From assembly GCA_017445425.1 (NCBI GenBank), contig JAFSUF010000037.1, forward strand, positions 1 to 46,074: a stretch of 46,074 nucleotides of DNA, read 5' to 3'. A model generated the notes under the pieces. The model searched no databases, was not told the origin of the DNA, and saw only the letters and a list, made by a program, of their open reading frames with translations. This DNA comes from Bacteroidales bacterium (GTDB taxonomy: Bacteria; Bacteroidota; Bacteroidia; Bacteroidales; UBA932). This document shows, one piece after another, positions 19,804 to 37,383 of the stretch (within the stretch, counting starts at the first letter, position 1; the number at the start of each line of letters is the position of its first letter). The translations under genes and the position numbers were made by a program.

Positions 19804-20799
19804 ATGAAACACTTATCATCTTTACTTGCCGCGACGGCAGTCGTACTGATTGCTGCATGCGCCCCGAAACAGGCGGCAGAGGCACCGGTCAACGTTATCT
19901 TTGAGACCGATATGGGCAACGACATCGACGATGCCATGGCGCTGGACATGCTCTACAAATATGTAGAGGATGGCAAGATCAACCTGCTGGCGGTGATGAT
20001 AAACAAAGAGGGGAGCGCGCCGGCAGAATTTGTTGATATAATGAACACCTTCTACGGACATCAGGTTCCTATCGGGGTCCGCCATGGCGGCGACCCGGCA
20101 GAGAAGGGGGGAGTGAATTTCGCGGAGGTTGTCTCAGGCATGAAAGACGATGCCGGGCAGCCGGTTTTCCATCGCACGCTGGAGCGCTGCGACACCCTGC
20201 CGGATGCATTGTCGCTCTATCGCAAGATACTCTCTGAAGTACCTGACAAGTCGGTGAAAATCATATCTGTAGGATTCTTTGGCAATCTCAGCGCCCTGCT
20301 GGGAAACGAGCCGGAACTGGTAGAGAAGAAGGTCGTTTCTCTCACCACCATGGGGGGCTGTTTCTTTGCACCCAACGGGGAATTCAACCTGCTGGGTGAC
20401 CTGGAGGCCAGCCGCAGCGTATTTGAAAACTGGCCCACGGAGATTGTGACATCGCCGTTTGAGGTGGGCATCGCAATCTGCTACCCGGGAGAGAGCATTG
20501 AGAATGATTTGGACTGGGGCATCCCCCACCCTATGCGGGAAGGCTATCTGGCCTACTGTCCGATGCCGCACGACCGCCCTTGCTGGGATTTAACCGCCGC
20601 CCTATATGCTGTTGAGGGGGGGGATTGGTTTACCGTATCGGAACCGGGAAAGATCTCTGTAGATGGGAATGGCGTGGCGACCTTCACGGCCGATTCTTCG
20701 GGACGGCAACGATATCTGGCCGTAACGCCGGAGCAGGCGGCCGCCATCAGGGAGCACTTCGTGGAGATCCTTACCCGCAAACCGTCAAATCTGCAATAG
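19804..20799 (+). CDS. nucleoside hydrolase-family lipoprotein
   Basis: A 331-aa protein with a lipoprotein signal (VVLIAAC, Cys 19). It has the inosine/uridine-preferring nucleoside hydrolase fold: the calcium/ribose motif around residues 33-46 (FETDMGNDIDDAMAL), IISVGFFGNLSALL, MGGCFFAPNGEFNLLGDLEAS and, late, HDRPCWDLTAALYAV, equivalent to the HDP motif. It should split N-glycosidic bonds of ribonucleosides (possibly NAD-derived) outside the cytoplasm, yielding ribose and base. It is convergent with the LacI-type regulator (6-nt gap), placing it beside the ribose/ADP-ribose locus, although its own transcription seems to come from the thioesterase promoter. Confidence 0.9.
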   Translation: MKHLSSLLAATAVVLIAACAPKQAAEAPVNVIFETDMGNDIDDAMALDMLYKYVEDGKINLLAVMINKEGSAPAEFVDIMNTFYGHQVPIGVRHGGDPAEKGGVNFAEVVSGMKDDAGQPVFHRTLERCDTLPDALSLYRKILSEVPDKSVKIISVGFFGNLSALLGNEPELVEKKVVSLTTMGGCFFAPNGEFNLLGDLEASRSVFENWPTEIVTSPFEVGIAICYPGESIENDLDWGIPHPMREGYLAYCPMPHDRPCWDLTAALYAVEGGDWFTVSEPGKISVDGNGVATFTADSSGRQRYLAVTPEQAAAIREHFVEILTRKPSNLQ

Positions 20800-20805
20800 G
20801 CCGCC

Positions 20806-21819
20806 TTAACAACTTGAACGTACTACCAGGGTGGGCGGAATCAGTCTTTGGCAGACAGCCGGCTCCGGAAGCCCTTCGCGTCGGGAATCAATAATTCCAA
20901 AAAGGGTTTCTACCGCCATCGACGAGGCTTCGCGCAACGGTTGTTCTATGCGGGTAACCGCCGGGTCAAGGAAATCGAGAAAGCCGTTGTTGTCGTAGGA
21001 TATTATTCCAACATCCCTCTTTACCTCTATATTGAGTTCCCTGAACGCATCTATCGCCCCCAGCAGTATGGTGGCGCTGAATGCGAATACCGCATCGAAC
21101 GGCCGCGCACCATCAGAGAAACATTTCATTATCTCATCGTGGCCATTCTCCACAGAGAAGGCATTACCCGCCACGGCATAGTGTACCGGCTTCCCCTTGA
21201 TAGCATCGGTAAAGCCCCGCAGCCGCTCCTGGTTAGGCATAGAGGTCGGAACGCCCTGGATTGCAAGAATGCTTTTGTAACCCCTGTCCAGCAGATAGTC
21301 CGTAGCCATCCGTGCCCCAAGGTAGTTGTCGGTGCAAACATAGGGCAGGGTCGTCTTTTTGAAGTGCCTGTCGATGAGCACAACCGGGATATCACGGCCA
21401 ATCTGCTCCAGGTTGTCTGCCTTTGTTGCCACCGGGACGGCGATTATGCCATCCACTTTGCGCCCCTTGAACATCTGTAGCGCCTGCTCCTCTTCCTGCT
21501 CTGACTCCCTTGAATCGGCCAGCAAAGTGTGATAGCCGCGGGCGGCCAGCAGATTGATGATAATGCCGGACAAAGTTGCAAAGAAGGGGTTGTCGATGCC
21601 CGGCACCAGCAGTCCGATGGTATGGGACTGCTTTGTTCGAAGTGTCTGTGCCACCAGATCCGGCTGGTAATTGACTTGGCGGGCAGTCTCAGAAATCAGG
21701 TCTATCGCTTTTTTGCTGATACGGAATTTTGCTGCCTGCCCGGTGAGGACGCGTGACACGGTAGAGACGGAATAACCTGTCCTGGACGCTATTGTGAATA
21801 TGTTGCTTTTACCTTCCAT
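20806..21819 (-). CDS. LacI-family transcriptional regulator
   Basis: A 337-aa protein from ATG 21819 (MEGKSNIFTIASRTGYSVSTVSRVLTGQ). The N-terminal HTH and hinge (TIASRTGYSVSTVSRVL ... NYQPDLVAQTLRTKQSHTIGLLVPGIDNPFF) are followed by a periplasmic-binding-protein-like sensor domain (KVDGIIAVPVATK, PVVLIDRHF, VCTDNYLGARMATDYLLDRGY, DVGIISYDNNGF). It is divergent from ribokinase, and a 9-4-9 inverted repeat at 21871-21892 is a likely binding site. By position it should be an RbsR-like repressor answering to ribose or a derivative; the ligand is inference. Confidence 0.92.
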   Translation of the reverse strand: MEGKSNIFTIASRTGYSVSTVSRVLTGQAAKFRISKKAIDLISETARQVNYQPDLVAQTLRTKQSHTIGLLVPGIDNPFFATLSGIIINLLAARGYHTLLADSRESEQEEEQALQMFKGRKVDGIIAVPVATKADNLEQIGRDIPVVLIDRHFKKTTLPYVCTDNYLGARMATDYLLDRGYKSILAIQGVPTSMPNQERLRGFTDAIKGKPVHYAVAGNAFSVENGHDEIMKCFSDGARPFDAVFAFSATILLGAIDAFRELNIEVKRDVGIISYDNNGFLDFLDPAVTRIEQPLREASSMAVETLFGIIDSRREGLPEPAVCQRLIPPTLVVRSSC

Positions 21820-21831
21820 CACACTTTGCGC

Positions 21832-21862
21832 TTGTAAAGTTAAGCATTTTTTTGTACTTTTG
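21832..21862 (+). promoter_or_regulatory. promoter of the ribokinase-SusCD-ADPRH operon
   Basis: TTG at 21832-21834 and TACTTTTG (full TAnnTTTG match) at 21855-21862, 20 nt apart. Transcription would begin around 21867-21870, directly before the inverted repeat. On the opposite strand TAACTTTA (21835-21842, 7 of 8) could serve the regulator gene. Confidence 0.65.
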
Positions 21863-21870
21863 CGTAAAGC

Positions 21871-21892
21871 TTTGCTCAAACGATTGCGCAAA
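21871..21892. promoter_or_regulatory. candidate LacI-type operator
   Basis: Half-site TTTGCTCAA (21871-21879), spacer ACGA, half-site TTGCGCAAA (21884-21892). The arms are complementary at 8 of 9 positions. It lies just after the expected transcription start, where a bound repressor would block the operon. Related TTTGCG words occur at 21825-21830 and 21859-21864. Confidence 0.65.
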
Positions 21893-21929
21893 AATAATAA
21901 AGATTCAGAAACAGATAAAATAATATATT

Positions 21930-22829
21930 ATGGGCAAAATTCTCATTATCGGCAGTTCCAATACCGACCTTGTGGTAAAAACAGACCATATTCCCGAACC
22001 GGGAGAGACAATTCTGGGTGACAATTTCATGATAGCCGCGGGCGGCAAGGGTGCCAACCAGGCCGTGGCGGCTGCGCGCCTTGGCGGCGACGTGGCTTTC
22101 ATCGCCTGCGTAGGTGACGATATGTTTGGCCGCCAGACACTGGAGAACTACAAAAAGGAGCACATGGACATCTCCCATATCCGCACCGACAAGGCAGCTC
22201 CCAGCGGAGTGGCGCTTATCAGCGTGGCCGCCGACGGCGAAAACTGCATCGTGGTTGCCCCCGGCGCCAATTCCTCACTCTCCACAGCCGACATCGACGC
22301 TGCGGACAGCCTCTTCCGCGACGCAGATTATATCCTTATGCAGCTCGAGATTCCGATGCCGGTAATCGAGTATGCCGCAGCGAAAGGCAAAGGGTATGGG
22401 AAGAAGGTCATCATCAATCCCGCTCCAGCAGCGCCGCTGAGCGATGCCCTGCTCAAGGGGCTCTACCTGATTACCCCCAACAAGACAGAATGCCGCCAGC
22501 TCACCGGCATCGACATACAGAGTGACGCCGACCTGGACCACGCGGCGGAATGCCTGATGGCCAAGGGGGTGGAGAACGTCGTAATCACCCTCGGCAGCAA
22601 GGGTTCCTATGTAAGGACCCCCTCCGGAAGCAGCGTGGTCCCCACAATGAAGGTGAAAGCGATGGACACTACCGGAGCCGGTGACACCTACAACGGCTCG
22701 CTGCTGGTTGCCCTCTCGGAGGGTCAGCCTCTGGAAAAGGCAGTAGGCTTTGCCAGCAAGGCGGCAGCCATCTCCGTAACCCGCATGGGTGCGCAGCCCT
22801 CTATTCCCTTCCGTAAAGAGCTAGAATAA
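21930..22829 (+). CDS. rbsK: ribokinase (PfkB family)
   Basis: A 299-aa PfkB kinase: MGKILIIGSSNTDLVVKTDHIPEPGET, GGKGANQAVAAARLGGDVAFIACVGDD (first PfkB signature) and DTTGAGDTYNGSLLVAL (second signature with the catalytic Asp). The GSSNxDLV start and PGET are ribokinase-like. It makes ribose 5-phosphate in the cytoplasm. First gene of a long operon, under the operator at 21871-21892. Confidence 0.93.
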   Translation: MGKILIIGSSNTDLVVKTDHIPEPGETILGDNFMIAAGGKGANQAVAAARLGGDVAFIACVGDDMFGRQTLENYKKEHMDISHIRTDKAAPSGVALISVAADGENCIVVAPGANSSLSTADIDAADSLFRDADYILMQLEIPMPVIEYAAAKGKGYGKKVIINPAPAAPLSDALLKGLYLITPNKTECRQLTGIDIQSDADLDHAAECLMAKGVENVVITLGSKGSYVRTPSGSSVVPTMKVKAMDTTGAGDTYNGSLLVALSEGQPLEKAVGFASKAAAISVTRMGAQPSIPFRKELE

Positions 22830-22852
22830 TAAACAATTAAAAATATACTACT

Positions 22853-23866
22853 ATGTACATCGTTGGCAGTTACACACTTGCAGTCATTTTCTGCTTTGTT
22901 ACAATGCTCTGCTGGGGCTCCTGGGGCAACACCCAGAAACTGGCCGCCAAGAGCTGGAGATACGAACTTTTCTATTGGGACTATGTGATCGGCATGGTCA
23001 TCTTCTCGCTGATCCTGGCTTTCACAGCCGGCAGTATAGGCAGCCAGGGCCGCCCCTTCCTTGAGGACCTTGCACAGGTAAGTTGGACCAGCATAGGTTG
23101 GGTCTTGCTGGGCGCCGTAATCTTTAATGTATCCAACATCCTGCTTTCAGCATCGGTCTCTCTGGCCGGTATGGCAGTTGCCTTCCCGTTGGGTGTGGGC
23201 ATTGCGCTGGTAATGGGCGTGCTGAACAATCTGCTGCTCCACCCCACAACGGGCCAGAATACCACTTTGCTCTGGATCGGCGTGGCCCTGGTAGTGCTCG
23301 CCATCATCTGCAACGGCATAGCCTCGGGCAAAATCTCAAATGAAGAGCGCGACCGCGCCACCAACCGCAAGGGCATCATACTGGCGCTGCTGGCAGGTAT
23401 CATCATGTCATTCTTCTCCGCATTGGTTTACAACGGCGTGGACCTCGACAACTTTGCGTCTCCCGCAGCCGGCAAGATGACCCCATACACCGCCATGGTC
23501 ATCTTTGCACTGGGCGTGTTCCTGAGCAACTTTATCGTTAACACTATCGTGATGAAGAAACCTTTCGTGGGCGACCCCGTCACCTATAAGCAATATTTCG
23601 CAGGCAATTTCAAGACCCATCTGGTAGGTGTCCTGGGAGGTTGCATCTGGGCGCTGGGTACATCCCTCAACTATATCTGCGCAGGCACCGCCGGCGCAGC
23701 CGTGTCTTATGCACTCGGCCAGGGCGCACCCATGATTGCCGCAATCTGGGGCGTATTCATCTGGAAAGAGTTCAAGGGGGCTCCCAAGAAGGTTTACTGG
23801 CTGCTTGCACTTATGTTTGCCCTGTTCGTGGCAGGTCTGGCATGCGTCGTCAAGGCTGGTATGTAA
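22853..23866 (+). CDS. DMT-superfamily sugar permease, probably ribose
   Basis: A 337-aa protein with about ten hydrophobic helices (for example AVIFCFVTMLCWGSWGN, VIGMVIFSLILAFTAG, GMAVAFPLGVGIALVMGVLNNLLL). It resembles the glucose/ribose uptake and rhamnose permease group (GRP/RhaT/RbsU type) more than drug exporters. The CWGSWGNTQK and ALGTSLNYICAGTAGAAVSYALGQGAPMIAAIWGVFIWKEF regions are family-like. Located between ribokinase and SusC, it should import the monosaccharide that RbsK phosphorylates across the inner membrane. Confidence 0.82.
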   Translation: MYIVGSYTLAVIFCFVTMLCWGSWGNTQKLAAKSWRYELFYWDYVIGMVIFSLILAFTAGSIGSQGRPFLEDLAQVSWTSIGWVLLGAVIFNVSNILLSASVSLAGMAVAFPLGVGIALVMGVLNNLLLHPTTGQNTTLLWIGVALVVLAIICNGIASGKISNEERDRATNRKGIILALLAGIIMSFFSALVYNGVDLDNFASPAAGKMTPYTAMVIFALGVFLSNFIVNTIVMKKPFVGDPVTYKQYFAGNFKTHLVGVLGGCIWALGTSLNYICAGTAGAAVSYALGQGAPMIAAIWGVFIWKEFKGAPKKVYWLLALMFALFVAGLACVVKAGM

Positions 23867-23878
23867 TTATTTGCCGCC

Positions 23879-26785
23879 ATGAAAAAATTCATCCTCACTA
23901 TCGCCTCCTTCCTGCTGGTGTGGGGCGCCGTGGCGCAGAATGTGACCGTCAGCGGCCGCATATCTGACGAAAACGGTGAACCGCTGCCGGCTGCCGCGCT
24001 TCTGGCCGGCGGCGACTATACCACCAGCGACGTTGAGGGTCACTATTCCCTGTCCACCAAATCCGGTGCCGCCGTCGTTGTATCCTATATGGGATACGAA
24101 GATTACACTTTTACCGTACCTGCCGGCGGCGGTAAGGTGGATATAAGCATGACCCCCTCGCAGGCAATCATGCTGGACGAAACGGTGGTCATAGGCTACG
24201 GAACCACCACCAAGAAAGAGACCACCGGCAGCGTGGCGAGCCTCAAATCGGAGAATCTTGACCTGGGCTCTTACATCAATGCCGGAGCGATGCTTCAGGG
24301 CAAGGTGGCCGGCCTGACTGTGGTCAACCCCGACGGCGGCGACCCTAACGCATCGTACCAGTTCCTGCTTCGCGGTACCAATACCCTCGAGGCGGGACAA
24401 GGCCCCCTGATTATCATCGACGGCGTGGCCGATGCCGACATCCGCAATATAAACTTCCAGGAGGTTGAATCTATCGACGTGCTCAAGGATGGTTCTGCCG
24501 CCGCAATCTACGGAACCCGCGGTACCAACGGTGTGGTCATTATCACCACCCGCCGGGCCCGCAGCGGCTCGACGAGCGTGGAGTATGACGGGCAGGTATC
24601 TGTCCAGGCCGTCCAGTCGCGCGCGATGCCTATGACGGCAGAGGAGTTTAAATACACCATCGAGCACTACGCCCCCGCCAAGACCGGTTCGCTCTACGGC
24701 TATGAAACCGACTGGTTTGACGAGATTACCCGCACCCCTATAAGCCACAAGCACAGCCTGGCAGTGTCGGGCGGCAACGACCGCTTCTCGCACCGTACCG
24801 TGCTCAATGTAGAGCAGAACCAGGGCCTCCAGAAGAAGAACGAAGCTTCCAAGTACTTGATCAAGACCAACATCGTGCAACACTGCCTGGAGGGCTGGCT
24901 CGACATGGACTACAACCTGAGCTATGTCAAGAGGGTGGCCTCTCCCGCCAATTACGGCGCTTTCCGCCAGGCCTTCATGCGCAACCCCACAGAGCCCGTT
25001 TACGATGAGGCCGCCACCCAATATGGCGGGTACTTCACCCTGACCGAGTCGGACTACTCCAACCCGGTGGCAATGATAAACGAGCGTTCTGCCACAAACG
25101 AGACCAGCACGGTTGCAGCGAGCGTGAGGGCAACCCTCAACATCCTGCCAATCCAGGGTCTCAAGTGGGACAACTTCCTGAGTTATTCCGACGAAAAGTA
25201 CTTCGGCTGTGAATACAAGACATCGTATTATCCCGGCAGCGTCGGAAAGAAGGGCGTAGCTTACACATCGGCCAATGCCTATGACAACCTTCAGTGGGAG
25301 AGCACCCTGCAGTATTCCCGCATGTTCGGCGACCACTCCTTCCAGGGCATTCTCGGATACACCTGGCAGAAGCAGATAAACTGGTCCAGCAACATGGAGA
25401 ACTACGGCTTTGACTCCGACTTCTACAAATACAACAACATGGGTATCGGTACCGCCCTCAAGCAGGGCCTGGCCGACATGTACACCAACCGTTCCTCCAA
25501 CCGGTACATCGCCTTCTTCGGCCGCGTAATCTGGAACTATAAGGAGAAATACCTCGCATCGGTTTCTCTGCGCCGCGACGGCTCCACCCGCTTTGGCAAA
25601 GACCACAAGTGGGGCTGGTTCCCCGCTGTTAGCCTCGGCTGGCGCATGAGCCAGGAAGAGTGGCTCAAGGACGTGGAGTGGCTCAGCGAACTCAAACTGC
25701 GCGCCGGCTACGGCGTGACCGGCAACCAGGACTTTGCAAACTACAAGTCGTTGATGTTGATGTCTTCAGGCACGAGCTTCTACTACAACGGCGAGTGGAT
25801 CAACTCCTACGCCCCCGCCTCCAATGCCAATCCAGACCTCCGCTGGGAGCGCAAGAGCGAGTTCAACGTGGGTGCCGACTTCTCTTTCCTGAACGGACGC
25901 CTGGGCGGTACCCTGGATTATTATTACCGCCTCACCACAGACCTTCTGTATGAATACAACGTGCCTGTGCCTCCGTACGACTACAAAACCCTCTTCACCA
26001 ACGTGGGTTCCATCAGCAATACCGGTGTAGAACTGTCGCTCTATGCAACGCCGGTCAAGACCCGCAACCTGGTGTGGACCACGAGCCTTGTGGCTGCGCA
26101 CAACCGCAACAAACTCATCAAGTTCACCAACGAGGAGTTCCAGAACCAGGACTATGAGATCGGCTGGATCGCCACCCCCGTGGGGGCTTATGTCCAGCGC
26201 CTTATAGAGGGCGAAAGCCTGGGGTCGTTCTATGCCCCCCGATGGGACCACGTAGGCCCCGACGGACGCGACGTACTTAAGGATGAATTTGCAGGCAAGG
26301 TGCCCGTGGCAAAATGGAGCCGCATAGGCAGTGCTTATCCCGACGCGACCCTGGGCTGGAGCAACACCCTCCGCTACCGTCAGTGGACATTTGGAATGAC
26401 CCTGCGCGGAGCCATCGGCGGCAAGGTGTTCAACAGCTACCGCGCCACCTACGAGAACCTGCAGCAAATCGGTCTGCGCAACATCCTCGCATCCTGGCTT
26501 GACGACACCTCCTATACCGGCGAAATCCGCTATTCTGACAAGTACATAGAAGATGCCAGCTACCTTAAACTGGATAACGTGTCGGTAAGCTACGACCTGC
26601 CTTACCACAACCAGTACCTGCATTCTGCCCGCGTATTTGTCTCCGGCCAGAACCTCTGCTGCCTCACGGGCTACAAGGGGGTTGACCCGGAAGTGAGCCT
26701 CTCCGGCCTGACTCCCGGTATCGAGAGCACCAGCTACTATCCCCGTACCATGACATTCTCCCTTGGAGTCAATTTAACCTTCTAA
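23879..26785 (+). CDS. SusC/RagA-type TonB-dependent outer-membrane transporter
   Basis: A 968-aa protein. Signal peptide (ends GAVAQ), carboxypeptidase-D-like domain (VTVSGRISDENGEPLPAAALLAGGDYTTSDVEGHYSL, about residues 22-95), then the SusC motif LDETVVIGYGTTTKKETTGSV, plug domain (LQGKVAGLTVV ... LLRGTNTLEAGQGPLIIIDGV ... SIDVLKDGSAAAIYGTRGTNGVVIITT) and a large barrel ending in YPRTMTFSLGVNLTF. It pulls a bound ligand across the outer membrane using TonB energy. Paired with SusD 12 nt downstream. Its ligand is unknown; neighbours suggest ADP-ribose or nucleoside-type compounds. Confidence 0.96.
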   Translation: MKKFILTIASFLLVWGAVAQNVTVSGRISDENGEPLPAAALLAGGDYTTSDVEGHYSLSTKSGAAVVVSYMGYEDYTFTVPAGGGKVDISMTPSQAIMLDETVVIGYGTTTKKETTGSVASLKSENLDLGSYINAGAMLQGKVAGLTVVNPDGGDPNASYQFLLRGTNTLEAGQGPLIIIDGVADADIRNINFQEVESIDVLKDGSAAAIYGTRGTNGVVIITTRRARSGSTSVEYDGQVSVQAVQSRAMPMTAEEFKYTIEHYAPAKTGSLYGYETDWFDEITRTPISHKHSLAVSGGNDRFSHRTVLNVEQNQGLQKKNEASKYLIKTNIVQHCLEGWLDMDYNLSYVKRVASPANYGAFRQAFMRNPTEPVYDEAATQYGGYFTLTESDYSNPVAMINERSATNETSTVAASVRATLNILPIQGLKWDNFLSYSDEKYFGCEYKTSYYPGSVGKKGVAYTSANAYDNLQWESTLQYSRMFGDHSFQGILGYTWQKQINWSSNMENYGFDSDFYKYNNMGIGTALKQGLADMYTNRSSNRYIAFFGRVIWNYKEKYLASVSLRRDGSTRFGKDHKWGWFPAVSLGWRMSQEEWLKDVEWLSELKLRAGYGVTGNQDFANYKSLMLMSSGTSFYYNGEWINSYAPASNANPDLRWERKSEFNVGADFSFLNGRLGGTLDYYYRLTTDLLYEYNVPVPPYDYKTLFTNVGSISNTGVELSLYATPVKTRNLVWTTSLVAAHNRNKLIKFTNEEFQNQDYEIGWIATPVGAYVQRLIEGESLGSFYAPRWDHVGPDGRDVLKDEFAGKVPVAKWSRIGSAYPDATLGWSNTLRYRQWTFGMTLRGAIGGKVFNSYRATYENLQQIGLRNILASWLDDTSYTGEIRYSDKYIEDASYLKLDNVSVSYDLPYHNQYLHSARVFVSGQNLCCLTGYKGVDPEVSLSGLTPGIESTSYYPRTMTFSLGVNLTF

Positions 26786-26797
26786 ACTCTCCGCGGT

Positions 26798-28321
26798 ATG
26801 AAAAAGCTATTTCTGACAATGATTCTCGGTGCGGTTGCGCTCAGCGCATGCACCAATCTGGATGAGGAGATATACTCCAAGATCTCCAAGGATAACTTCT
26901 TTACCACAGAGGAGCAGTTTGTCAAGTACTCCGCCCGCGCATATTCGTCGCTGCAGCACTGGGGCACCGAGAAGAGCCTCTGGACCTTCGTGATCCAGAA
27001 CACCAACGAGGTCTGCACCCCCGTCAACCCCAACGGCGGTTGGTGGGACGACGGTCGCTACAACGAGGTCCACGTGCACAGCATCTCCTCCAGCAACCGT
27101 CTCCTGGAGATGGCATGGGATTACTGGGCAAGCGGAGTGACCGCCTGCAACGACGTGCTTGACATGTTCGAGAGCGTGGATAAGGACTTTGAAGCCAAGG
27201 ACCGCGTCGTGGCAGAGGTCAAGACCCTCCGGGCCTACTATTACCTGTGCGCGACAGACAACTGGGGGAGCGTCCCCTACTCCATCTCCAAGAAGGAGAA
27301 AGGCTACCCCGAGAAGAAGGACCGCGCCTTCATGTTCAGCTTCATAGAGAAGGAGATCAAGGACAACATAGATTTCCTGCAGGTTGAGCCCACCGGCGAG
27401 TATTATGGCCGCATCACCCGCGGCGCCGCCGACGCAATCCTTGCAAAGCTCTATCTGAATGCAGAAAAGTGGATAGGCAAGCCGATGTGGAAGGAAGCCG
27501 AGGAGGCCTGCCAGGACATCATCAGCCGCGGCAACTATCGTCTCGCAGAAAACTATAAAGATAATTTCAAGGTATATAACGAGACTTCTCCGGAGCAGAT
27601 ATTCGCCATCCCTTACAGCACTGTTTACACTACCGACGACCACCACGCCTTCATTATTTACATGTCCACCCTGCCGGCAGACCTCTGCCGCCCGCTGGGC
27701 ATCCCCGCCGACGCGTGGGACGGCCTTTGCGCAGAGCCGGACTTCATGGCAAGTTATGAAGAGGGCGACACCCGCAAGAAAGATACATGGCTGTATGGCC
27801 AGATATACGACAAAGACGGCAATCCCATTGAGTTTGCCCCAGGCGTACCGTACGTCATCGATCCCGACATGCCTGAGAGCGTATATGGCAAAGACGCCCG
27901 CCGCGACGCGCTGCAGGGCGCCCGTATAGCAAAGTGGGAATACCAGAGCGACGGTCGCCTCACCGGCGGACAGGTCGGCATGGACAATGATTTCTTCCTT
28001 CTCCGCTATGCTGACGTCGTGCTGATGTATGTAGAGGCCCTGGTGCGCCAGAACCGCACTGCAGAGGCTGCCAATGTCGCAGACTTCCAGCGCATCCGCA
28101 CCCGCGCCGGGCTGAAACCTTTCACCGTCGCACAGCTTACTCTGGACAATCTCTACTGGGAGCGCGCCCACGAACTCGCCATAGAGGGGTGGCAGCGCCA
28201 GGATATGATCCGCTTTGACAAGTATCTTGAGGCATGGTGGGCAAAACCGGTCAAGGATGCTTCTGACCTTACTCTGCCGTACCCCAAATCTGCCATCGCA
28301 GCCAACCCTAACCTGAAGTAA
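26798..28321 (+). CDS. SusD/RagB-type surface ligand-binding lipoprotein
   Basis: A 507-aa protein with a lipobox (AVALSAC, Cys 18). Typical SusD landmarks are present: NLDEEIYSKISKDNFFTTEEQF, the TPR region DVVAEVKTLRAYYYLCATDNWG-like stretch, RGAADAILAKLYLNAEKWIG, FFLLRYADVVLMYVEALVRQN, RIRTRAGL and the late WERAHELAIEGWQRQDMIRF. It forms the lid on SusC and captures the ligand. 1 nt before the first ADP-ribosylglycohydrolase. Confidence 0.95.
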   Translation: MKKLFLTMILGAVALSACTNLDEEIYSKISKDNFFTTEEQFVKYSARAYSSLQHWGTEKSLWTFVIQNTNEVCTPVNPNGGWWDDGRYNEVHVHSISSSNRLLEMAWDYWASGVTACNDVLDMFESVDKDFEAKDRVVAEVKTLRAYYYLCATDNWGSVPYSISKKEKGYPEKKDRAFMFSFIEKEIKDNIDFLQVEPTGEYYGRITRGAADAILAKLYLNAEKWIGKPMWKEAEEACQDIISRGNYRLAENYKDNFKVYNETSPEQIFAIPYSTVYTTDDHHAFIIYMSTLPADLCRPLGIPADAWDGLCAEPDFMASYEEGDTRKKDTWLYGQIYDKDGNPIEFAPGVPYVIDPDMPESVYGKDARRDALQGARIAKWEYQSDGRLTGGQVGMDNDFFLLRYADVVLMYVEALVRQNRTAEAANVADFQRIRTRAGLKPFTVAQLTLDNLYWERAHELAIEGWQRQDMIRFDKYLEAWWAKPVKDASDLTLPYPKSAIAANPNLK

Positions 28322-28322
28322 C

Positions 28323-30089: not shown

Positions 30090-31686
30090 CATACTGGCCC
30101 TGTTGCTGCTCCTCATGGCAGGTTGCGGCGCACCAAAAGCCCCGCAAAGCGTGACCATGTCCCGCGAAGCGCTCATGGACAAGATCCGTGGCGGCTGGGC
30201 GGGCCAGACCATCGGGGTGGTGTACGGCGCCCCCACCGAGTTCAAGTTCACCGGCACCCTGATTCCCGACAACCAGCCCATCAGCTGGGGCGAAGGGTAT
30301 GTCAAATACTGGTGGGACCGCAAGCCGGGCCTCTTTGACGACGTGTACAACGACCTTACGTTTGCAGAAGCCTTTGAACAGCTGGGCCTGGACGCTACGT
30401 CAGAGCAGCTGGGAATGAGGTTCGCATACGCACCATATCACCTGGCCCACGCCAACCAGGCCGGGCGCTATAATATCCGCCAAGGTATCATGCCGCCCGA
30501 ATCGGGCAACTGGATGAACAACCCGCACGCCGATGACCTCGACTTCCAGATTGAGGCCGACTTCATAGGCCTTATGTCGCCCGGCATGATTGGCCAGGCG
30601 CTGGACATCGCAGAGCGGGTGGGCCACATAATGAACAGTGGTGACGGCTTCTACGGGGGCGCGTTCGTATCCGGACTGTACAGCGCGGCTTTTGTGGAGA
30701 GCGATCCCGCCCGCATTGTAAATATGGCGCTGGAGGGCATCCCCCCTCAGAGCACCTTCTGGCAGTGCGTCAACGACGTGCGCGTACTCCACAAGAAATA
30801 TCCGGACGACTGGAAACAGGCATGGTTTGAACTCCTCAAAAAATGGGGGTCCGACACCGGTTGCCCCAAAGGGGTGTTCCTGAGCTTTGACATCGACGCC
30901 AAGATCAATTCTGCATACGTTGCGATGGGGCTGCTCTACGGCGGCGGCGACTTTGGCCGCTCGCTGGAGATTGCGACCCGCTGCGGCCAGGACTCCGACT
31001 GCAACCCCGCCACCGTGGGCGGCGTGCTGGGTGTAGTGCTCGGACTCGACGCCCTGCCGGCATTCTGGAAAGAGCCCGTCATGGAGATTTGGGACCTTGA
31101 TTTTGAGGGTACTGACGTCTCTCTGGCAAAGGGTTCTCAATATTCTTTTGACCAGGCGCTGGAGCTGATAGGGCAGAACGGCGGCGAAGTTACCGATACC
31201 GATGTCACCATTGCCCTGAAGCCGGTGGAGGTGCTTCCGCTGGAGCAGAACTTCGTGGATACCTACCCCATATACCGCGACCAGAAAGATGACTGGATGA
31301 GCTCTTCCTACGAGTTTGACTTCTCCGGCAACGGCTTCGTTATCTGGGGCAACCTGGTGTGCCTTCGAGGAATCACCGCCGACTATGCGGCACGCGTGAG
31401 CAAGAAGCATGTCGGCAGCGAGGTATTTGCACTGGCAGAGGAGGATGACGATTACGTCGCCGAGGTTGAAGTCTGGATAGACGGCGCGCTGGAGGAGGTG
31501 TCGATGCTCCCCATGAAGGGGACCTCCCGCAAGCTTGAACCTGCGTGGAAATACGGCCTTCAGCAGGGCCGCCACAACGTGAAGATGGTATGGCGCAACC
31601 CCAAGCCCGACGAGTACCTGCTGCGCATCAACGCCATCCAGTATTATGGCGACAAGCCGATAACCGACACTTACTATCACAATTAG
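30076..31686 (+). CDS. ADP-ribosylglycohydrolase-family lipoprotein 2
   Basis: A 536-aa protein with a lipobox (LLLLMAGC, Cys 17). The ADPRH fold begins DKIRGGWAGQTIGVVYGAPTEFKF. The first acidic motif is FDDVYNDLTF (88-96) rather than SDDT; the middle has NPHADDLDFQIEADF (about 147-161). The second metal motif, CGQDSDCNPATVGGVLG, lies near residue 303. A beta-rich C-terminal domain (about 400-536) follows: DDDYVAEVEVWIDGALEEVSM ... GRHNVKMVWRNPKPDEYLLRINAIQYYG. Very similar in plan to the next protein, suggesting tandem duplication. Overlaps the preceding gene by 14 nt. Confidence 0.9.
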   Translation: MKRSSILALLLLLMAGCGAPKAPQSVTMSREALMDKIRGGWAGQTIGVVYGAPTEFKFTGTLIPDNQPISWGEGYVKYWWDRKPGLFDDVYNDLTFAEAFEQLGLDATSEQLGMRFAYAPYHLAHANQAGRYNIRQGIMPPESGNWMNNPHADDLDFQIEADFIGLMSPGMIGQALDIAERVGHIMNSGDGFYGGAFVSGLYSAAFVESDPARIVNMALEGIPPQSTFWQCVNDVRVLHKKYPDDWKQAWFELLKKWGSDTGCPKGVFLSFDIDAKINSAYVAMGLLYGGGDFGRSLEIATRCGQDSDCNPATVGGVLGVVLGLDALPAFWKEPVMEIWDLDFEGTDVSLAKGSQYSFDQALELIGQNGGEVTDTDVTIALKPVEVLPLEQNFVDTYPIYRDQKDDWMSSSYEFDFSGNGFVIWGNLVCLRGITADYAARVSKKHVGSEVFALAEEDDDYVAEVEVWIDGALEEVSMLPMKGTSRKLEPAWKYGLQQGRHNVKMVWRNPKPDEYLLRINAIQYYGDKPITDTYYHN

Positions 31687-31687
31687 A

Positions 31688-33199
31688 ATGAAAAGACTCA
31701 TCATACCGCTGCTGGTGCTCTTTACAGCCTGCACGTCAGCGCCCAAAGTGCCCTACGGGCAGACCGTGAAGATGGACGACGCCACGCTGATGGACAAGAT
31801 CCTTGGCGGCTGGTACGGCCAGACCATCGGCTGCACCTACGGCGGCCCCACGGAATTCAAGTACAAGGGAGGCATCATCATGGATGAAATTCCCATCCCA
31901 TGGTACGACGATTATATCTACGACACCTACATTGAGGACCCCGGCCTGTACGACGACGTTTACATGGACCTGACCTTCCTGGAGACGATGCTCAGGCACG
32001 GTCTGGACGCCCCTGTTGAAGAGTATGCCAAAGCCTTTGCCTATGCCGACTACAAGCTGTGGCACGCTAACCAGGCCGCACGGTACAATATCCTCAATGG
32101 TCGCACCGCACCTGAATCGGGTCACTGGATGTACAATCCGCACGCCGACGACATCGACTTCCAGATTGAGGCCGATTTCATAGGGATGCTCTATCCCGGG
32201 CAGGTAAACAAGGCCTCCGGGCTCAGCGACCGCATAGGCCACATAATGAACTATGGCGACGGGTGGTACGGCGGCGTTTATACCGGTGCGATGTACTGCC
32301 TGGCCTATGTCTGCGATGACATACCGACCATTGTTACGGAGGCATTGAGAACCATTCCGGAAGGGACAAAGTTCCACAGCACCATATCTGATGTTATCAA
32401 ATACTGGAAGCAGTATCCCGACGACTGGAAACAGTGCTGGTTTGAGGTCACCAACCGCCACGCCAACGATGTCGGCTGCCCGGAGGGAGTCTGGAACGGC
32501 TTCAACATAGATGCTACCATAAATTCTGCATTCGTAGTGATTGGCCTGCTTTACGGCGGGGGCGATTTGTTCAAAACCATGGACATCTCTACCCGTTGCG
32601 GCAACGATTCCGACTGCAATCCCGCCTCCGCGGCGGGCATCCTTGGGGTGATGTACGGCTACGACGCCATCCCCGACGAATGGAAGAAAGGGGCCGAGCG
32701 CATCAAAGAGATCCCCTTCCCCTACACCAACCTGAGCCTCGAGGATGTATGCAAGGCAAACTTTGACCTCGTGAAAAAAGTGGCTCAAAATAGTGATAAT
32801 ACCGGGGATGGATGCATTTATATTGAGTTGGAGACTCCGCAAAGCGTACGCTATGAGCAGTGCTTTGAAGGGATTGTACCCGTAGAGAAGCGGGTGCTCA
32901 AGAAGGCCTTCACCGACTCGGTGGAGCTTGCCTTTGAGGGGAACAGTATTGTGGTAGAGGGGAGTGTACGCAAAACCGGGCATGCCGATGACAGCTATGT
33001 CGCCAACATCACCGCCCTGCTGGACGGATGCGAAGTGGAGAACTTTAACATGCCGGTAGATTATATCACACGCAAGTACGAGATATTCTCCAAGTATTGC
33101 TTTGACAGCGGCAGGCATACGCTGACGCTGCGCCTCAACAACCCCCATCCCGACTACGAACTATACGCCTCTGAAATGGTTGTCTATGATAAAGAATAA
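31688..33199 (+). CDS. ADP-ribosylglycohydrolase-family lipoprotein 3
   Basis: A 503-aa paralogue of lipoprotein 2. It has a lipobox (VLFTAC, Cys 15), DKILGGWYGQTIGCTYGGPTEFKY, YDDVYMDLTF near 88, NPHADDIDFQIEADFIGMLYPGQ, and CGNDSDCNPASAAGILG near 303. The C-terminal domain is beta-rich (SYVANITALLDGCEVENFNMPVD ... GRHTLTLRLNNPHPDYELYASEMVVYD). All acidic positions of the GxDSDCNPA and DDVYxDLTF motifs are kept, so it may be active, though its substrate could differ from canonical ADPRH. It begins 1 nt after the preceding stop. Confidence 0.9.
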   Translation: MKRLIIPLLVLFTACTSAPKVPYGQTVKMDDATLMDKILGGWYGQTIGCTYGGPTEFKYKGGIIMDEIPIPWYDDYIYDTYIEDPGLYDDVYMDLTFLETMLRHGLDAPVEEYAKAFAYADYKLWHANQAARYNILNGRTAPESGHWMYNPHADDIDFQIEADFIGMLYPGQVNKASGLSDRIGHIMNYGDGWYGGVYTGAMYCLAYVCDDIPTIVTEALRTIPEGTKFHSTISDVIKYWKQYPDDWKQCWFEVTNRHANDVGCPEGVWNGFNIDATINSAFVVIGLLYGGGDLFKTMDISTRCGNDSDCNPASAAGILGVMYGYDAIPDEWKKGAERIKEIPFPYTNLSLEDVCKANFDLVKKVAQNSDNTGDGCIYIELETPQSVRYEQCFEGIVPVEKRVLKKAFTDSVELAFEGNSIVVEGSVRKTGHADDSYVANITALLDGCEVENFNMPVDYITRKYEIFSKYCFDSGRHTLTLRLNNPHPDYELYASEMVVYDKE

Positions 33200-34703
33200 G
33201 TACATACTGCCACTGCTGCTCTTGCTGATGGTGCTAAGTTCCTGCGGGAGCTGCACCAAACACCGCCCCCTGCCCGATGTCGACCCCGTGCCGCTGCCAC
33301 GCTACAACACCGGCCTGACATTCTCCAGCAAGGCGATTAACACCACCGTCACATACGACATAATGCTCCCCGGGGAGTATAACGATAATAACGACAAACG
33401 TTACCCGGTAGTGTACTGCCTGCACGGCTACGGCGATGACAACACCTCGTGGAACGGCCACTACATGGCTTGCGAGGCCAAGATCACCAGCCTGGAGAAC
33501 AACGGTCTGGAGCCGATGATATACGTTTTCCCCAACGGCTGGAAAACCTACTGGTGCGACCGTTACGACGGCACGTTCCCATATATGACGATGCTGGCCA
33601 CCGAGCTGGTTCCCCTGATAGATGCCACCTACCGCACCATTGCCGACCGGGGCCACCGCGCCATAACAGGCTATTCTATGGGCGGTTTCGGCGCGATGGT
33701 GACAGCCATGAAGCACCCGGAATTATTCTCCATGAGCGCTCCGCTCTCCATGTCCTTCCGTACCGACGAGCAATATATGACCGAGTCCCAGGATGGTTGG
33801 AACAATCAGTGGGGCAAGGTATTCGGCGGCGTGGGGCAGACCGGGGAAGGACGCCTGACCGACTATTACAAGGCGCACTGCCCGCTGCATCAGTTCACGG
33901 CAGAGAATAAAGACAAGTACTCCTCCGTACACTGGTTCCTGACCTGCGGCGATGACGAGCAGCAGTTGCTCTTTGCCAACGACGACCTGCACGTGCTCAT
34001 GCGCGACAACGGCTATGACCACGAATATCGCGTTGGCAACGGCGGCCATACCACTTCTTACTGGAAAACAGCCCTCGAAGAGATTCTGCCCTGGTTCTCC
34101 GCCCTTATGGCTGGACAAACCACATGGCAAAAAAGTCTCCGCGAGGTGGACGTACCACAGGGCTGTACTTTCACCTCCGAGGATAATTATATCTCCGACG
34201 GTTATGTTGCCGCAGCAGGCAAAGGCGGCACCGCCCTTTTCATCGCCCACGACGGCATATCACAGGAGTGGCTCAAGGATGCCATGGCCATTATCCAGCG
34301 CGGAATGACATCCAAAAAGTTTGTCCTCCTCCCCTGCAACCTGCAGGTACGCAGCCTTTCGGAGTGGGTAAGTTACTACAAGGACATCTACCCCACCGAC
34401 AATTGCCAGGTGCTGGCCATAGGCAAGGCGGGCAGCGAGGCCATCCAGAAACAATCGCTCTTTTCTGCGCTCTATTTTGAAAGTGCGGAAATCAATGGCG
34501 ACATCACCGTCTCCAGTGACAGGAGCTATTTCTTTACAGATACCGACGACGGCCCTTATTACAAATCGGCCAACGCCCTCTACAAAGCCTGCAAGAGTGG
34601 CAACGTAACGTTTGAATACCGCTGCCGCAACCATCTGGATGATGCGCAGACCAACTTCCTTACCGGGATAGAATATGTAAAATCCAATTTATATAACTTC
34701 TAA
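33186..34703 (+). CDS. esterase-family lipoprotein with a second degenerate hydrolase-like half
   Basis: A 505-aa protein from ATG 33186, overlapping the previous gene by 14 nt. Lipobox VLSSC (Cys 19). The N-terminal half is a putative esterase (esterase D/feruloyl esterase type): VVYCLHGYGDDNTSWN (oxyanion loop), nucleophile Ser 164 in GYSMGGFGAM, an acidic residue candidate in CGDDE, and His in GNGGHTTSYW. The C-terminal half (from about 320) resembles another alpha/beta fold (GGTALFIAHDG ... KFVLLPCNLQVRSLSEW) without a serine motif. In this operon it might remove acyl or ester-linked groups from the imported ligand; that is inference. Confidence 0.85.
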   Translation: MIKNKYILPLLLLLMVLSSCGSCTKHRPLPDVDPVPLPRYNTGLTFSSKAINTTVTYDIMLPGEYNDNNDKRYPVVYCLHGYGDDNTSWNGHYMACEAKITSLENNGLEPMIYVFPNGWKTYWCDRYDGTFPYMTMLATELVPLIDATYRTIADRGHRAITGYSMGGFGAMVTAMKHPELFSMSAPLSMSFRTDEQYMTESQDGWNNQWGKVFGGVGQTGEGRLTDYYKAHCPLHQFTAENKDKYSSVHWFLTCGDDEQQLLFANDDLHVLMRDNGYDHEYRVGNGGHTTSYWKTALEEILPWFSALMAGQTTWQKSLREVDVPQGCTFTSEDNYISDGYVAAAGKGGTALFIAHDGISQEWLKDAMAIIQRGMTSKKFVLLPCNLQVRSLSEWVSYYKDIYPTDNCQVLAIGKAGSEAIQKQSLFSALYFESAEINGDITVSSDRSYFFTDTDDGPYYKSANALYKACKSGNVTFEYRCRNHLDDAQTNFLTGIEYVKSNLYNF

Positions 34704-34737
34704 CAATCAATCACTAACCATTTTAAATCAACAGACA

Positions 34738-35460
34738 ATGAAAAAAGTTCTTTTTGCAATTGCAATGATTGCTGTGGTTGCCCTGAGCGGCTGCACAAAA
34801 CCGGAACCCAAGATCCAGAAACGTCTCGTTATGTGCGGTGACGAGTGGGACAAGTATGCATTCACTTACAACGCTGACGGTAAGATCTCCGTTGTAAACC
34901 GCAACGAGGGTGAGCGTACCTGGACTTTCACCTGGAACGGCAACACCGCTACTGTTGCTTACGTGAAAGAAGGTGAAGTTAAGGATCCGTACACCTTTAC
35001 CCTTGGCGCAAACGGTTTTGTATCTACCTATACCGACACTTGGGGTGACGTTCGCAACTGCACCTACGATGCAGACGGCCACCTTCTCAAAGTTGACAAG
35101 GCAGGTGACGTGAAATGCAACTGCGTCTGGAAAGACGGCGACCTGGAGAAATGGTCCCGCTTCAGTGACGGTGCAGAGCAGTTCAAGCTCCAGAATTTCC
35201 TCGTTGACGAGAACGTCGGCGGCATCTTCCCCGACGCTACCGACAAGGCTGGCATAGACCGCTGGATGATTGAGCTCGGTCTCTTTGGCAAGCCTTCCAA
35301 GCACCTCCTCGACCAGGCTACCTGGGATGGCAGCGGCGCTATCGCTGTCCAGACCTATGAGAAAGACGAGGACGGCTTCGTAACCAAGGTCAGCAAGGTT
35401 TACGACGGTGGCGACCCCGAAATCTACGAGTACGCTTGGGAAGTAATCAACTCTAAATAA
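34738..35460 (+). CDS. small lipoprotein with YD-like beta repeats
   Basis: A 240-aa protein with a lipobox (VVALSGC, Cys 19). The mature part has repeated short beta motifs (FTYNADGKIS, FTLGANGFVS, CTYDADGHLLK, QTYEKDEDGFVTK) like those of Bacteroidota YD-repeat/DUF4595-type surface lipoproteins. No catalytic motif seen. Its codons are noticeably richer in GCT/GTT/GGT than those of the operon genes before it, closer to rpsP, which suggests high expression. It follows the esterase after 34 nt and precedes a strong terminator, so it is the last gene of the operon. Confidence 0.8.
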   Translation: MKKVLFAIAMIAVVALSGCTKPEPKIQKRLVMCGDEWDKYAFTYNADGKISVVNRNEGERTWTFTWNGNTATVAYVKEGEVKDPYTFTLGANGFVSTYTDTWGDVRNCTYDADGHLLKVDKAGDVKCNCVWKDGDLEKWSRFSDGAEQFKLQNFLVDENVGGIFPDATDKAGIDRWMIELGLFGKPSKHLLDQATWDGSGAIAVQTYEKDEDGFVTKVSKVYDGGDPEIYEYAWEVINSK

Positions 35461-35478
35461 TCCATCCAGGGTTATATC

Positions 35479-35514
35479 AAGTCCGGCTCCGGTTATAGGG
35501 CCGGACTTTTTTTG
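35479..35514 (+). terminator. terminator of the ADPRH operon
   Basis: AAGTCCGGC pairs with GCCGGACTT around an apical loop, followed by a run of seven T. It separates the operon from the GH127-type gene. Confidence 0.88.
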
Positions 35515-35526
35515 TATTTTAGCGGT

Positions 35527-37383
35527 ATGAAACGTATCCTGACTCTCCTCTTTGCGGCAGTTGTGATTACCGCCTCCTGCAGCCGCAGCAACAGCCCCGC
35601 CAACAAGCTCATCACCCCTGTAAAATTCTCGGATGTCACCATAGACGACGCCTTCTGGAGCCCCCGTCTTGCCAGTCATAAAGATGTCACCCTCACGGTC
35701 TGCATAGACCAGATAGAGAACCAGACCGGCCGCATCCGCAATTTTGAGAATGCCGCAAATGGAACCGGCGGACACTCGGGCATCTATTTTGACGATTCCG
35801 ACGTTTACAAGGCGCTGGAGGGGATGGCATATTCGCTGCAGAACAATCCCGATCCGCTCCTGGAGGCCAAGTGCGACGAGTGGATAGATAAGTTTGCCGC
35901 GGCTCAGGAGGATGACGGCTACCTCAACACCTTCTATTCCCTTACCGGACTGGATGAGCGCTGGATTGATATGACGAGCCACGAGATGTACTGCGCCGGC
36001 CATTTGACAGAAGCGGCGGTGGCATACTACAATGTCACCGGCAAGCGCAAGCTGCTGGATGTCGCTATCCGGATGGCAGACCACATGATGACCATCTTCG
36101 GTCCCGGCAAACGCCACTGGGTCCCCGGGCACGAAGAGATAGAGCTGGCGCTGGTCAAGTTGTTCCAGACAACCGGAAAGAAGAAATACCTGGATTTTGC
36201 CCAGTGGCTGATAGATGAGAGGGGCCACGGATACGGCACCAGCGGAAACCCTCCGCAGCCCTGGACCGCAGAATACTTCCAGGATGACAAGCCGGTACGG
36301 GAGATGACCGACATCGCCGGCCATGCCGTGAGGGCGATGTACCTCTATTGCGGAATGGCCGATGTCGCCTCCTACACCGGGGACCAGGGTTACATAGATG
36401 CCCTGAACCGCCTCTGGGAGGATGTGGTGCTGCGCAACATGTACATAACCGGCGGCATAGGACAAAGCGCGCACAACGAGGGCTTTACAAACGACTACAG
36501 TCTTCCCAACCTGACCGCTTACTGCGAGACGTGCGCTTCTGTGGGGATGGTCCTCTGGAACTGGCGCATGAACCAGTTTACTGCAGATTCAAAATATATC
36601 GATGTGCTGGAGCGTGCCATGTACAACGGCGCCCTGGCTGGCGTTTCACTGGATGGCGACACCTTTTTCTATGTTAATCCTCTTGAATCCCTGGGCGACC
36701 ACCACCGCCAGCCCTGGTACGGCTGCGCCTGCTGCCCCAGCCAGATATGCAGATTCCTGCCGTCAATAGGCAACTACATTTACGGCGTGGCCAAGGACGG
36801 CATCTATGTAAACCTCTATATGGGCAATACCGCCACCATCAAGCTTGGCCGCCGCGCCGTGACCCTGACCCAGGAGACATCCTATCCATGGGATGGGGAG
36901 GTGACTCTCACCGTAGGGTGCAAACGGCCATTTACGACGGCGCTGCGGCTCAGGCTTCCCGGCTGGTGCAAGAGATGCACCGTCTCTGTAAACGGAGGCT
37001 CTTTACAAATCCCGGTGGTAAAAGGCTATGCCGTGATTAACCGCAAATGGTGCGACGGGGACAAGGTTGTGCTCAATATGGAGATGCCTACGGAGATTGT
37101 GGCCGCCGACCCCCGCGTCAAGGAAGATGAAGGGCGCCGGGCCATACAGCGCGGCCCCCTGGTATATTGTATGGAGGAGGTTGACAACCCCGGCTACGAC
37201 AATCTCTCCCTCTCTTATGAGTATCAGTTCGGGACCACATGGGAGGGCAACCTGCTTCGGGGCGTGACAACCATCACCGCCACCTGCGGGGACCAGCAGA
37301 TCAAACTCATCCCCTACTACGCCTGGGACAACCGTGCCCCCGGCAAGATGCAGGTCTGGATTCCGTTTGCGGGAGAGAAATAA
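35527..37383 (+). CDS. GH127-type (DUF1680) furanosidase lipoprotein
   Basis: A 618-aa protein from ATG 35527. Lipobox ITASC (Cys 17). It matches the DUF1680/GH127 family, whose founding member HypBA1 is a zinc-dependent beta-L-arabinofuranosidase with a cysteine nucleophile. Equivalent residues are visible with matching spacing: acid/base candidate E318 (HNEGF), zinc ligands E334 and C336 (CETC), C402 (nucleophile) and C403 (GCACCPSQ). The (alpha/alpha)6 barrel (EDDGYLNTFYS, GHLTEAAVAYY) is followed by beta domains. It lies after the operon terminator and has no clear promoter of its own. It could be coregulated or serve a different sugar; arabinofuranoside and ribofuranoside substrates are both open. 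Confidence 0.9.
   Translation: MKRILTLLFAAVVITASCSRSNSPANKLITPVKFSDVTIDDAFWSPRLASHKDVTLTVCIDQIENQTGRIRNFENAANGTGGHSGIYFDDSDVYKALEGMAYSLQNNPDPLLEAKCDEWIDKFAAAQEDDGYLNTFYSLTGLDERWIDMTSHEMYCAGHLTEAAVAYYNVTGKRKLLDVAIRMADHMMTIFGPGKRHWVPGHEEIELALVKLFQTTGKKKYLDFAQWLIDERGHGYGTSGNPPQPWTAEYFQDDKPVREMTDIAGHAVRAMYLYCGMADVASYTGDQGYIDALNRLWEDVVLRNMYITGGIGQSAHNEGFTNDYSLPNLTAYCETCASVGMVLWNWRMNQFTADSKYIDVLERAMYNGALAGVSLDGDTFFYVNPLESLGDHHRQPWYGCACCPSQICRFLPSIGNYIYGVAKDGIYVNLYMGNTATIKLGRRAVTLTQETSYPWDGEVTLTVGCKRPFTTALRLRLPGWCKRCTVSVNGGSLQIPVVKGYAVINRKWCDGDKVVLNMEMPTEIVAADPRVKEDEGRRAIQRGPLVYCMEEVDNPGYDNLSLSYEYQFGTTWEGNLLRGVTTITATCGDQQIKLIPYYAWDNRAPGKMQVWIPFAGEK

Follow-up and report, generated by a model that had tools for sequence, protein, structure and literature searches.

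A candidate ribose-scavenging locus of Bacteroidales with three ADP-ribosylglycohydrolase-fold lipoproteins and exchangeable surface genes

Gene content and layout of the locus

The window studied here is one entire contig (JAFSUF010000037.1, 46,074 nucleotides) of a Bacteroidales metagenome-assembled genome (MAG) of 1.83 Mb that is 85.68% complete. It carries a locus in which a ribokinase, a sugar permease and a SusC/SusD pair stand in one gene row, the combination by which a ribose-utilization (RUS) locus is recognized, together with three lipoproteins of the ADP-ribosylglycohydrolase-fold family PF03747 (abbreviated ARH), an esterase and a small lipoprotein (Table 1). An earlier note, made from the sequence alone, had taken it for a polysaccharide utilization locus (PUL) for ADP-ribose or a similar compound, with ribose as the end product. 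We argue below that its reading as a ribose-utilization locus is well supported, and we report that its surface genes change type as a set around constant enzymes.

Every gene named in the earlier note is present where it had been placed, as judged from Pfam matches and translations, and the tight spacing described there was borne out: nine same-strand genes, from the ribokinase through the small lipoprotein (21930-35460), are spaced between a 14-nt overlap and a 34-nt gap when the esterase is taken to start at 33186. The likelier starts judged from the translations are ATG codons at 33186 for the esterase, 35527 for the GH127 gene and 21819 for the LacI-type regulator. Pfam scores above the curated cut-offs were obtained for PfkB (233.4 bits), Ureide_permease (83.6), SusD_RagB (76.6), ADP_ribosyl_GH (101.8, 116.3 and 130.7), Esterase (98.2), GH127 (390.2) and IU_nuc_hydro (59.7), as well as for the SusC plug and barrel and for Peripla_BP_1/3 in the regulator, which is of LacI type. 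The regulator's LacI helix-turn-helix scores 25.5, slightly below the cut-off of 27, and the sole match of the small lipoprotein is a sub-threshold DUF4595 (29.1; cut-off 34.2). The kinase clears two NCBIfam ribokinase equivalog cut-offs (368.1 against 341, and 365 against 299.65), and homologs of the GRP-type permease are annotated as "GRP family sugar transporter" in Parabacteroides distasonis and Spirosoma. The three proteins that pass the curated PF03747 cut-off are the only PF03747 matches in this 85.68% complete MAG.

Table 1. Features of the locus, with positions in the window and the basis of each assignment
Feature	Positions	Strand	Basis and remarks
Nucleoside-hydrolase-like lipoprotein (IU_nuc_hydro)	19804..20799	+	Pfam; clade-specific neighbor, separate transcription unit
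LacI/RbsR-type regulator	20806..21819	-	Pfam, NCBIfam; open frame to 21891, likely ATG 21819
LacI-type palindromic operator GCTCAAACGATTGCGC	21874..21889	no strand	Ends 40 nt before ribokinase start
Ribokinase	21930..22829	+	NCBIfam equivalog cut-offs; top solved-structure matches are ribokinases
GRP/RhaT-type sugar permease, probable ribose permease	22853..23866	+	Pfam, NCBIfam, annotated homologs
SusC-like TonB-dependent transporter, exchangeable surface part	23879..26785	+	Pfam plug and barrel; type switching
SusD-like lipoprotein, exchangeable surface part	26798..28321	+	Pfam; export signal; type switching
ARH1, PF03747 lipoprotein	28323..30089	+	Invariant SDDDTD motif; C-terminal extra region
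ARH2, PF03747 lipoprotein	30076..31686	+	DDVYNDLT/QDSDCNP type
ARH3, PF03747 lipoprotein	31688..33199	+	DDVYMDLT/DSDCNP type; helical domain and C-terminal beta domain
CE1-like esterase lipoprotein, exchangeable part	33186..34703	+	Invariant Ser and His; covaries with SusCD
Small lipoprotein (weak DUF4595)	34738..35460	+	Most relatives have a surface-export-like signal; type locked to that of SusC/SusD
GH127 lipoprotein, accessory	35527..37383	+	Close copy (77-92%) at 5/76 loci only

The LacI gene is divergent from the ribokinase gene and convergent with the nucleoside-hydrolase gene, which starts 4 nt past an acyl-ACP thioesterase gene. Because the oppositely directed LacI gene separates the two, the nucleoside hydrolase stands outside the ribokinase's transcription unit. 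At the other end, the GH127 gene follows the small lipoprotein after 51 nt to its open frame, or 66 nt to its likely ATG. The earlier note had found no Nudix hydrolase, nucleotidase or phosphatase in the window; this holds for the operon genes, but a calcineurin-like phosphoesterase (PF12850; 18100-18603, minus strand) lies 1.2 kb to the left of the locus, with no sign of belonging to it.

Recurrence of the core and switching of the surface genes

A scan of named genomes with ARH3 alone as the query, in which genes were labelled by tblastn, gave 76 loci, many of which end at contig ends, the ribokinase lying near the 10-kb edge of the fetched stretch. Three ARH genes were found in 59 of these loci, the three together with SusC and SusD in 55, and with the esterase as well in 54. 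All nine core genes are present in 39/76 loci, 36 of which keep the window's order, and this recurrence is not due to chance. The relatives are mostly Bacteroidales MAGs from ruminants, and the loci with the ARH triad and SusCD include those of Bacteroides xylanisolvens (XB1A) and B. pyogenes. Other arrangements also occur: the permease sits behind the esterase(s) in L062, L063, L064 and L076, an Alistipes locus (L067) has ARH, ribokinase and permease genes without SusCD, and an ARH relative stands without a ribokinase in L068, L070-L075 and L078. Strain XB1A (L062) is a named, completely sequenced strain with a whole triad locus, which may equal PUL 18 (BXY_19520-19610, "unknown substrate") as it appears in an excerpt of PMC4769552.

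The nucleoside hydrolase and the GH127 protein, which the earlier note had included in the locus, are present and adjoin the core but do not appear to be part of it. Close copies of the GH127 gene were found at 5/76 loci only (L004, L008, L014, L065 and L066), and its candidacy as a core part was dropped on that count. Among 15 genomes searched, the window's nucleoside hydrolase has relatives of 78-91% identity in four and weaker ones in two, and no relative at E<=1e-15 in nine, so it was likewise dropped from the core. Judged from this distribution, both genes seem to be accessories particular to the clade of the window locus. The window ribokinase is 90-98% identical to those of L004, L011, L014 and L065 and about 50-60% identical to those of other loci; it thus seems to have been replaced in this clade, with the adjoining permease conserved. 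In L011 the ribokinase is preceded, at a distance of 75 nt, by the end of a nucleoside-hydrolase gene (positions 1-220), and neither a LacI gene nor an operator match intervenes, unlike in the window.

Across the related loci, SusC, SusD, the small lipoprotein and, in most cases, the esterase (23879-28321 and 33186-35460 in the window) change type together, and the ARH genes between them stay. In the three most extreme complete pairs (L025/L028, L024/L025 and WIN/L004, WIN being the window locus), the ARHs are 90-98% and the permeases 96-98% identical, whereas identity falls to 60-62% for SusC, 46-53% for SusD, 42-47% for the esterase and 27-29% for the small lipoprotein. DNA profiles of WIN/L004 and L024/L025 consist of two divergent patches (about 33-77% identity) that flank an ARH core of mostly 86-99%, with outer sides of 82-99%; the right patch of WIN/L004 starts within the last 500 nt of ARH3. 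Partial correlations given the mean ARH identity, computed across the pairs that 38 loci form, are 0.96 for SusC-SusD, 0.93 for SusC-small lipoprotein and 0.74 for SusC-esterase, and lie between -0.09 and 0.07 for SusC or SusD against the ribokinase, the permease and the single ARHs, although the pairs are not independent and the ARH residuals are constrained by the correction. Types of SusD and of the small lipoprotein, clustered at thresholds of our own choosing, are concordant in 1078 of the 1081 pairs formed by 47 loci (172 same-same, 906 different-different, 3 same-different); the esterase follows the type of SusC, SusD and the small lipoprotein more loosely. The types require 17-21 changes on the core tree, and among 14 sister pairs taken from it by eye, both parts switched in six, neither in seven and the small lipoprotein alone in one (P = 0.005, Fisher's exact test).

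The mosaic is most readily explained by recombination that exchanges a matched reception complex and leaves the enzyme core constant, and the joint change of type suggests membership of the small lipoprotein in the SusCD complex. An account without exchange, in which surface genes merely diverge fast or MAG assemblies are chimeric, seems to us very improbable. It could appeal to the fact that the rumen loci are nearly all MAGs, to the tendency of surface genes toward fast evolution and to the analyst-chosen type thresholds; yet the divergence is patchy and has steep borders within loci that otherwise share about 82-99% DNA identity in both pairs profiled, the same types reappear in separate assemblies and lineages, and so high a concordance between SusD and small-lipoprotein types speaks against it. 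Apart from a Bacteroidales review (PMC12632263), the literature matches listed in a search for such a switching pattern were off the subject.

The switching parts also differ from the ARHs in their predicted location. The surface-export signal of lipoproteins is given in an excerpt of PMC5080379 as K-(D/E)2 or SDDDD, and we scored at least two acidic residues at positions +2 to +8 in proteins with a recognizable lipobox. Such an export-like signal was found in 91% of SusD (n=54), 68% of small-lipoprotein (n=44) and 34% of esterase sequences (n=53), and in 17% of ARH1 (n=53), 7% of ARH2 (n=54) and 1% of ARH3 (n=71), percentages that are rough, some lipobox picks being plainly wrong. Dropped for want of a lipobox were 2 SusD, 15 small-lipoprotein, 12 esterase, 7 ARH1, 9 ARH2 and 4 ARH3 sequences. 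These signals point to SusD and the small lipoprotein being outside and the ARHs inside, presumably in the periplasm.

The ARH family and its link to ribose genes

A wider search for the ARH family gave a match in 13/395 genomes of the phylum and 50/393 of the order, both counts including the window's genome. One region per cluster was fetched, which made 68 loci (partial hit G709:C33 left out; 17/68 are under 17 kb): 10 full triads, 5 with an ARH1-type gene only and 53 with an ARH3-type gene without the triad. Counting same-strand neighbors within 8 kb, at a 35% identity cut for the ribokinase, we found a ribokinase near 27 of the 68 loci, a permease near 25 and a nucleoside hydrolase near 9. 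The ribokinase is near 17/53 ARH3-type non-triad loci (all 17 at no less than 44% identity) against 0.095 expected from 50 ribokinase hits at E<=1e-50 in 57 genomes, or about 0.2 per Mb, although the loci in this count are not independent. At 16/53 non-triad loci a ribokinase, permease or nucleoside hydrolase is the direct neighbor. The ribokinase-linked members are spread over separate parts of a FastTree tree of 122 ARH rows, two of which are fused frames entered twice.

Two small operons illustrate this linkage. In P. distasonis (L080), rbsK, an ARH gene, a nucleoside hydrolase and a GRP transporter form a row that has its ribokinase and permease in common with the window and an ARH 52% identical to ARH3, but has one ARH only and no SusCD, esterase or small lipoprotein. 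The Spirosoma operon (L081) is similar (rbsK-ARH-GRP), its ARH being unannotated and reading in two pieces. No Nudix or phosphatase gene lies within these two annotated operons, which, together with the occurrence of ARHs in glycoside-hydrolase clusters, accords with ribose being released directly from a ribofuranoside. When 20 neighbors of ribokinase-less loci were scanned, they included glycan enzymes (GH26, DUF2961, GH94, PF10091, DUF4434 and DUF4855), BD-FAE esterases, a metallophosphoesterase (L129), glycosyltransferases, a peptidase, an ammonium transporter and unknowns. Judged by its neighbors, the ARH family is broad and partly glycan-linked, and its ribose-linked part includes the window. 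In L104 (5878-8880) an ARH-family gene stands behind DUF2961 and GH26 genes, a further sign of glycan activity in the family. On the rhizobial plasmids L082 and L083, a LacI gene, a sugar-type ABC importer, two ARH-family genes, a CoA transferase and a CoA ester lyase stand in a row, a grouping that hints at another kind of conjugate as the substrate.

The DD and DxD residues, which we take to be those of the metal-binding motif, are invariant in 53 ARH1, 61 ARH2 and 69 ARH3 sequences, so all three ARHs are probably active enzymes. In L044, L058 and L059, ARH1 and ARH2 are read as a single frame of 1173-1176 residues, with two PF03747 domains confirmed in the L044 frame, which argues for joint action in one place. 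The AlphaFold2 model of ARH3 is confident (pLDDT 89.5, pTM 0.90), with helices to about residue 367 and strands over residues 376-502. PF03747 and its acidic motifs are common to the window ARHs and the ADP-ribosyl hydrolases DraG, ARH1 and ARH3, but the window proteins are lipoproteins with an extra C-terminal domain, the first acidic motif of their ARH2 and ARH3 reads DDVY, and solved ADP-ribosyl hydrolases are barely detectable by the window ARH3 profile. The classical ARH motif is TDDT.

Of 36 loci with at least 100 nt upstream, 23 carry the palindrome TGCGCAA-N-CG-N-TTGCGCA at a distance of 44-62 nt ahead of the ribokinase (two mismatches at most; 0/720 shuffles), and no copy such as the window's would be expected by chance. 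Three loci without a match (L046, L049 and L053) have a different palindrome and the LacI gene on the other strand; L014 has no operator in its short upstream stretch. RbsR-type NCBIfam models are among the best for the regulator, yet score far under their cut-offs. The complete B. xylanisolvens genome holds the exact operator pattern just once, and the second site of the window genome, the one extra site examined, precedes another LacI-type gene; the idea that a missing half of the pathway lies under the same regulator was dropped on these grounds.

Function and substrate

RUS loci with ARH genes may already be in print, since Glowacki and colleagues reportedly described, in 2020, diversified variants of the RUS in Bacteroidetes that may include ADP-ribosylglycohydrolases. 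What is new here is the coordinated type switch of SusC, SusD, the small lipoprotein and, for the most part, the esterase around constant enzymes. By gene content, the closest known system is the Rus PUL of Bacteroides thetaiotaomicron (BT2803-2809; Glowacki et al. 2020, as cited in PMC12596196), which in the excerpts of PMC12596196 comprises a ribokinase, SusC, SusD, a nucleoside hydrolase and the permease RusT, proposed to carry free ribose; its gene names are tabulated in the part of PMC10434189 consulted. The earlier note had referred to a ribose-scavenging Bacteroides PUL of this makeup. The five parts have counterparts in the window, the nucleoside hydrolase there as a neighbor in a separate unit. 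The window core differs by adding three ARH-fold lipoproteins and an esterase, its nucleoside hydrolase seems confined to one clade, and it has a LacI-type regulator with an operator. The E. coli operon yegTUV likewise joins a transporter (nucleoside-symporter-like), an ARH-like protein and a sugar kinase, a likeness at the level of gene description, but is no PUL; its authors link the operon to ADP-glucose and glycogen in the excerpt of PMC10819704. No paper on ARH proteins in PULs or on ribofuranosidases was noted among the matches listed, a negative of little weight for the broadest search and with most subscription papers lying beyond its reach, and the one mention of an ADP-ribosylglycohydrolase among them, in the excerpt of PMC10434189, concerns haem uptake.

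We give somewhat better than even credence to a ribose-scavenging PUL that works as follows. A surface complex of SusC, SusD and the small lipoprotein, aided by the esterase, which might strip ester decorations, would capture and import a ribofuranosyl conjugate; the three ARH-fold lipoproteins would hydrolyze its ribofuranosyl linkages in the periplasm and free ribose; the GRP-type permease would bring the ribose into the cytoplasm, and the ribokinase would convert it to ribose 5-phosphate. The divergent RbsR-like LacI repressor would bind the palindrome before the ribokinase gene and leave it in the presence of the substrate. Ribose as the end product, a point on which the earlier note is upheld, is supported by the equivalog-grade ribokinase, the permease, the conserved LacI-type operator and the linkage of ARH to ribokinase across Bacteroidota. 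The conjugate may be a ribosylated bacterial glycan, a nucleoside-like riboside or ADP-ribose-derived material.

Several observations weigh against this ribose-scavenging model. The comparison of ARH neighborhoods across Bacteroidota that the earlier note had called for bears it out in part, by the excess of nearby ribokinases, but at 36/53 non-triad loci no ribokinase or permease lies on the same strand within 8 kb, a count affected by the regions that end early. ARH relatives occur within glycoside-hydrolase clusters without a ribokinase, and phosphoesterases lie near two of them (L129 and L070), as a phosphate-bearing substrate would need. Good operator matches are absent from 13/36 loci, and further operator sites occur in the window genome, G782 and G787 (one each) and G783 (two). 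The ARH3 profile matches solved ARHs marginally (6dre, E 7e-4), the ARH1 profile matches none, and the need for three ARHs is left unexplained.

The ligand proposed in the earlier note (ADP-ribose, ADP-ribosylated protein or poly-ADP-ribose) was not established, and nothing in the locus requires it. In a literal version, which we consider unlikely, the PUL would take up ADP-ribose, oligo-ADP-ribose or a peptide bearing ADP-ribose, the ARHs would cleave the ADP-ribosyl bond, and nucleotidases together with a nucleoside hydrolase would complete the breakdown to ribose. This version would explain PF03747 membership above the cut-off, the two NUDIX and two 5_nucleotid_C (UshA-type) matches in the genome outside the window, the phosphoesterases near L129 and L070, and the presence of a nucleoside hydrolase next to the locus in the window, as in some of its close relatives, and near 9/68 ARH loci. 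However, no pyrophosphatase or phosphatase is among the operon genes of the window or of the annotated P. distasonis and Spirosoma operons (flanks of other loci were scanned in part), the B. xylanisolvens genome holds a lone operator site, ARH relatives stand in glycan clusters, and the window's nucleoside hydrolase lacks a relative in nine of the 15 genomes.

We regard it as quite unlikely that the substrate of the ARHs is a glycan without ribose, for instance another furanoside or a pectin-like side chain carrying esters, with the ribokinase and permease serving a related pentose. ARH3 relatives of about 50% identity do stand beside GH29, GH127-like, GH28, GH106 and GH3 genes (in L070 together with two phosphoesterase-type genes), others beside GH26/DUF2961 (L104), GH94, PF10091, DUF4434 and DUF4855, and the window itself has a GH127 gene, but the kinase is an equivalog-grade ribokinase and its linkage, like that of the permease, recurs in separate parts of the ARH tree. 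Salvage of nucleosides or RNA, with the ARHs as nucleoside-like N-ribosidases, has in our view a very slight chance: nucleoside hydrolases go with ARH in single-ARH operons and the B. thetaiotaomicron locus also has one, yet both triad-bearing Bacteroides genomes (G793 and G794) have no match to the window's nucleoside hydrolase at E<=1e-15, and a CE1-type esterase with three ARHs would make little sense for plain nucleosides.

A wider proposal, which we put forward only tentatively and consider rather doubtful, is that the PF03747 lipoproteins of Bacteroidota are an unrecognized glycoside hydrolase family freeing ribose from ribofuranosyl polymers, for example ribose-containing bacterial surface glycans, and that a fixed enzyme core is served by an exchangeable reception module (SusC-SusD and esterase-small lipoprotein) co-replaced by recombination. 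If so, the same chemistry would be fed by different surface complexes, pressed by phage, immunity or differently decorated substrates. The coordinated switching offers a natural experiment on the drivers of SusCD diversity. Many bacterial proteins receive the name ADP-ribosylglycohydrolase by default, and the linkage data make it more likely that the Bacteroidota ARH branch is a sugar-releasing enzyme family tied to ribose catabolism. Such a branch would add an enzyme activity to carbohydrate use in the gut and rumen, and would point to a neglected pool of ribose.

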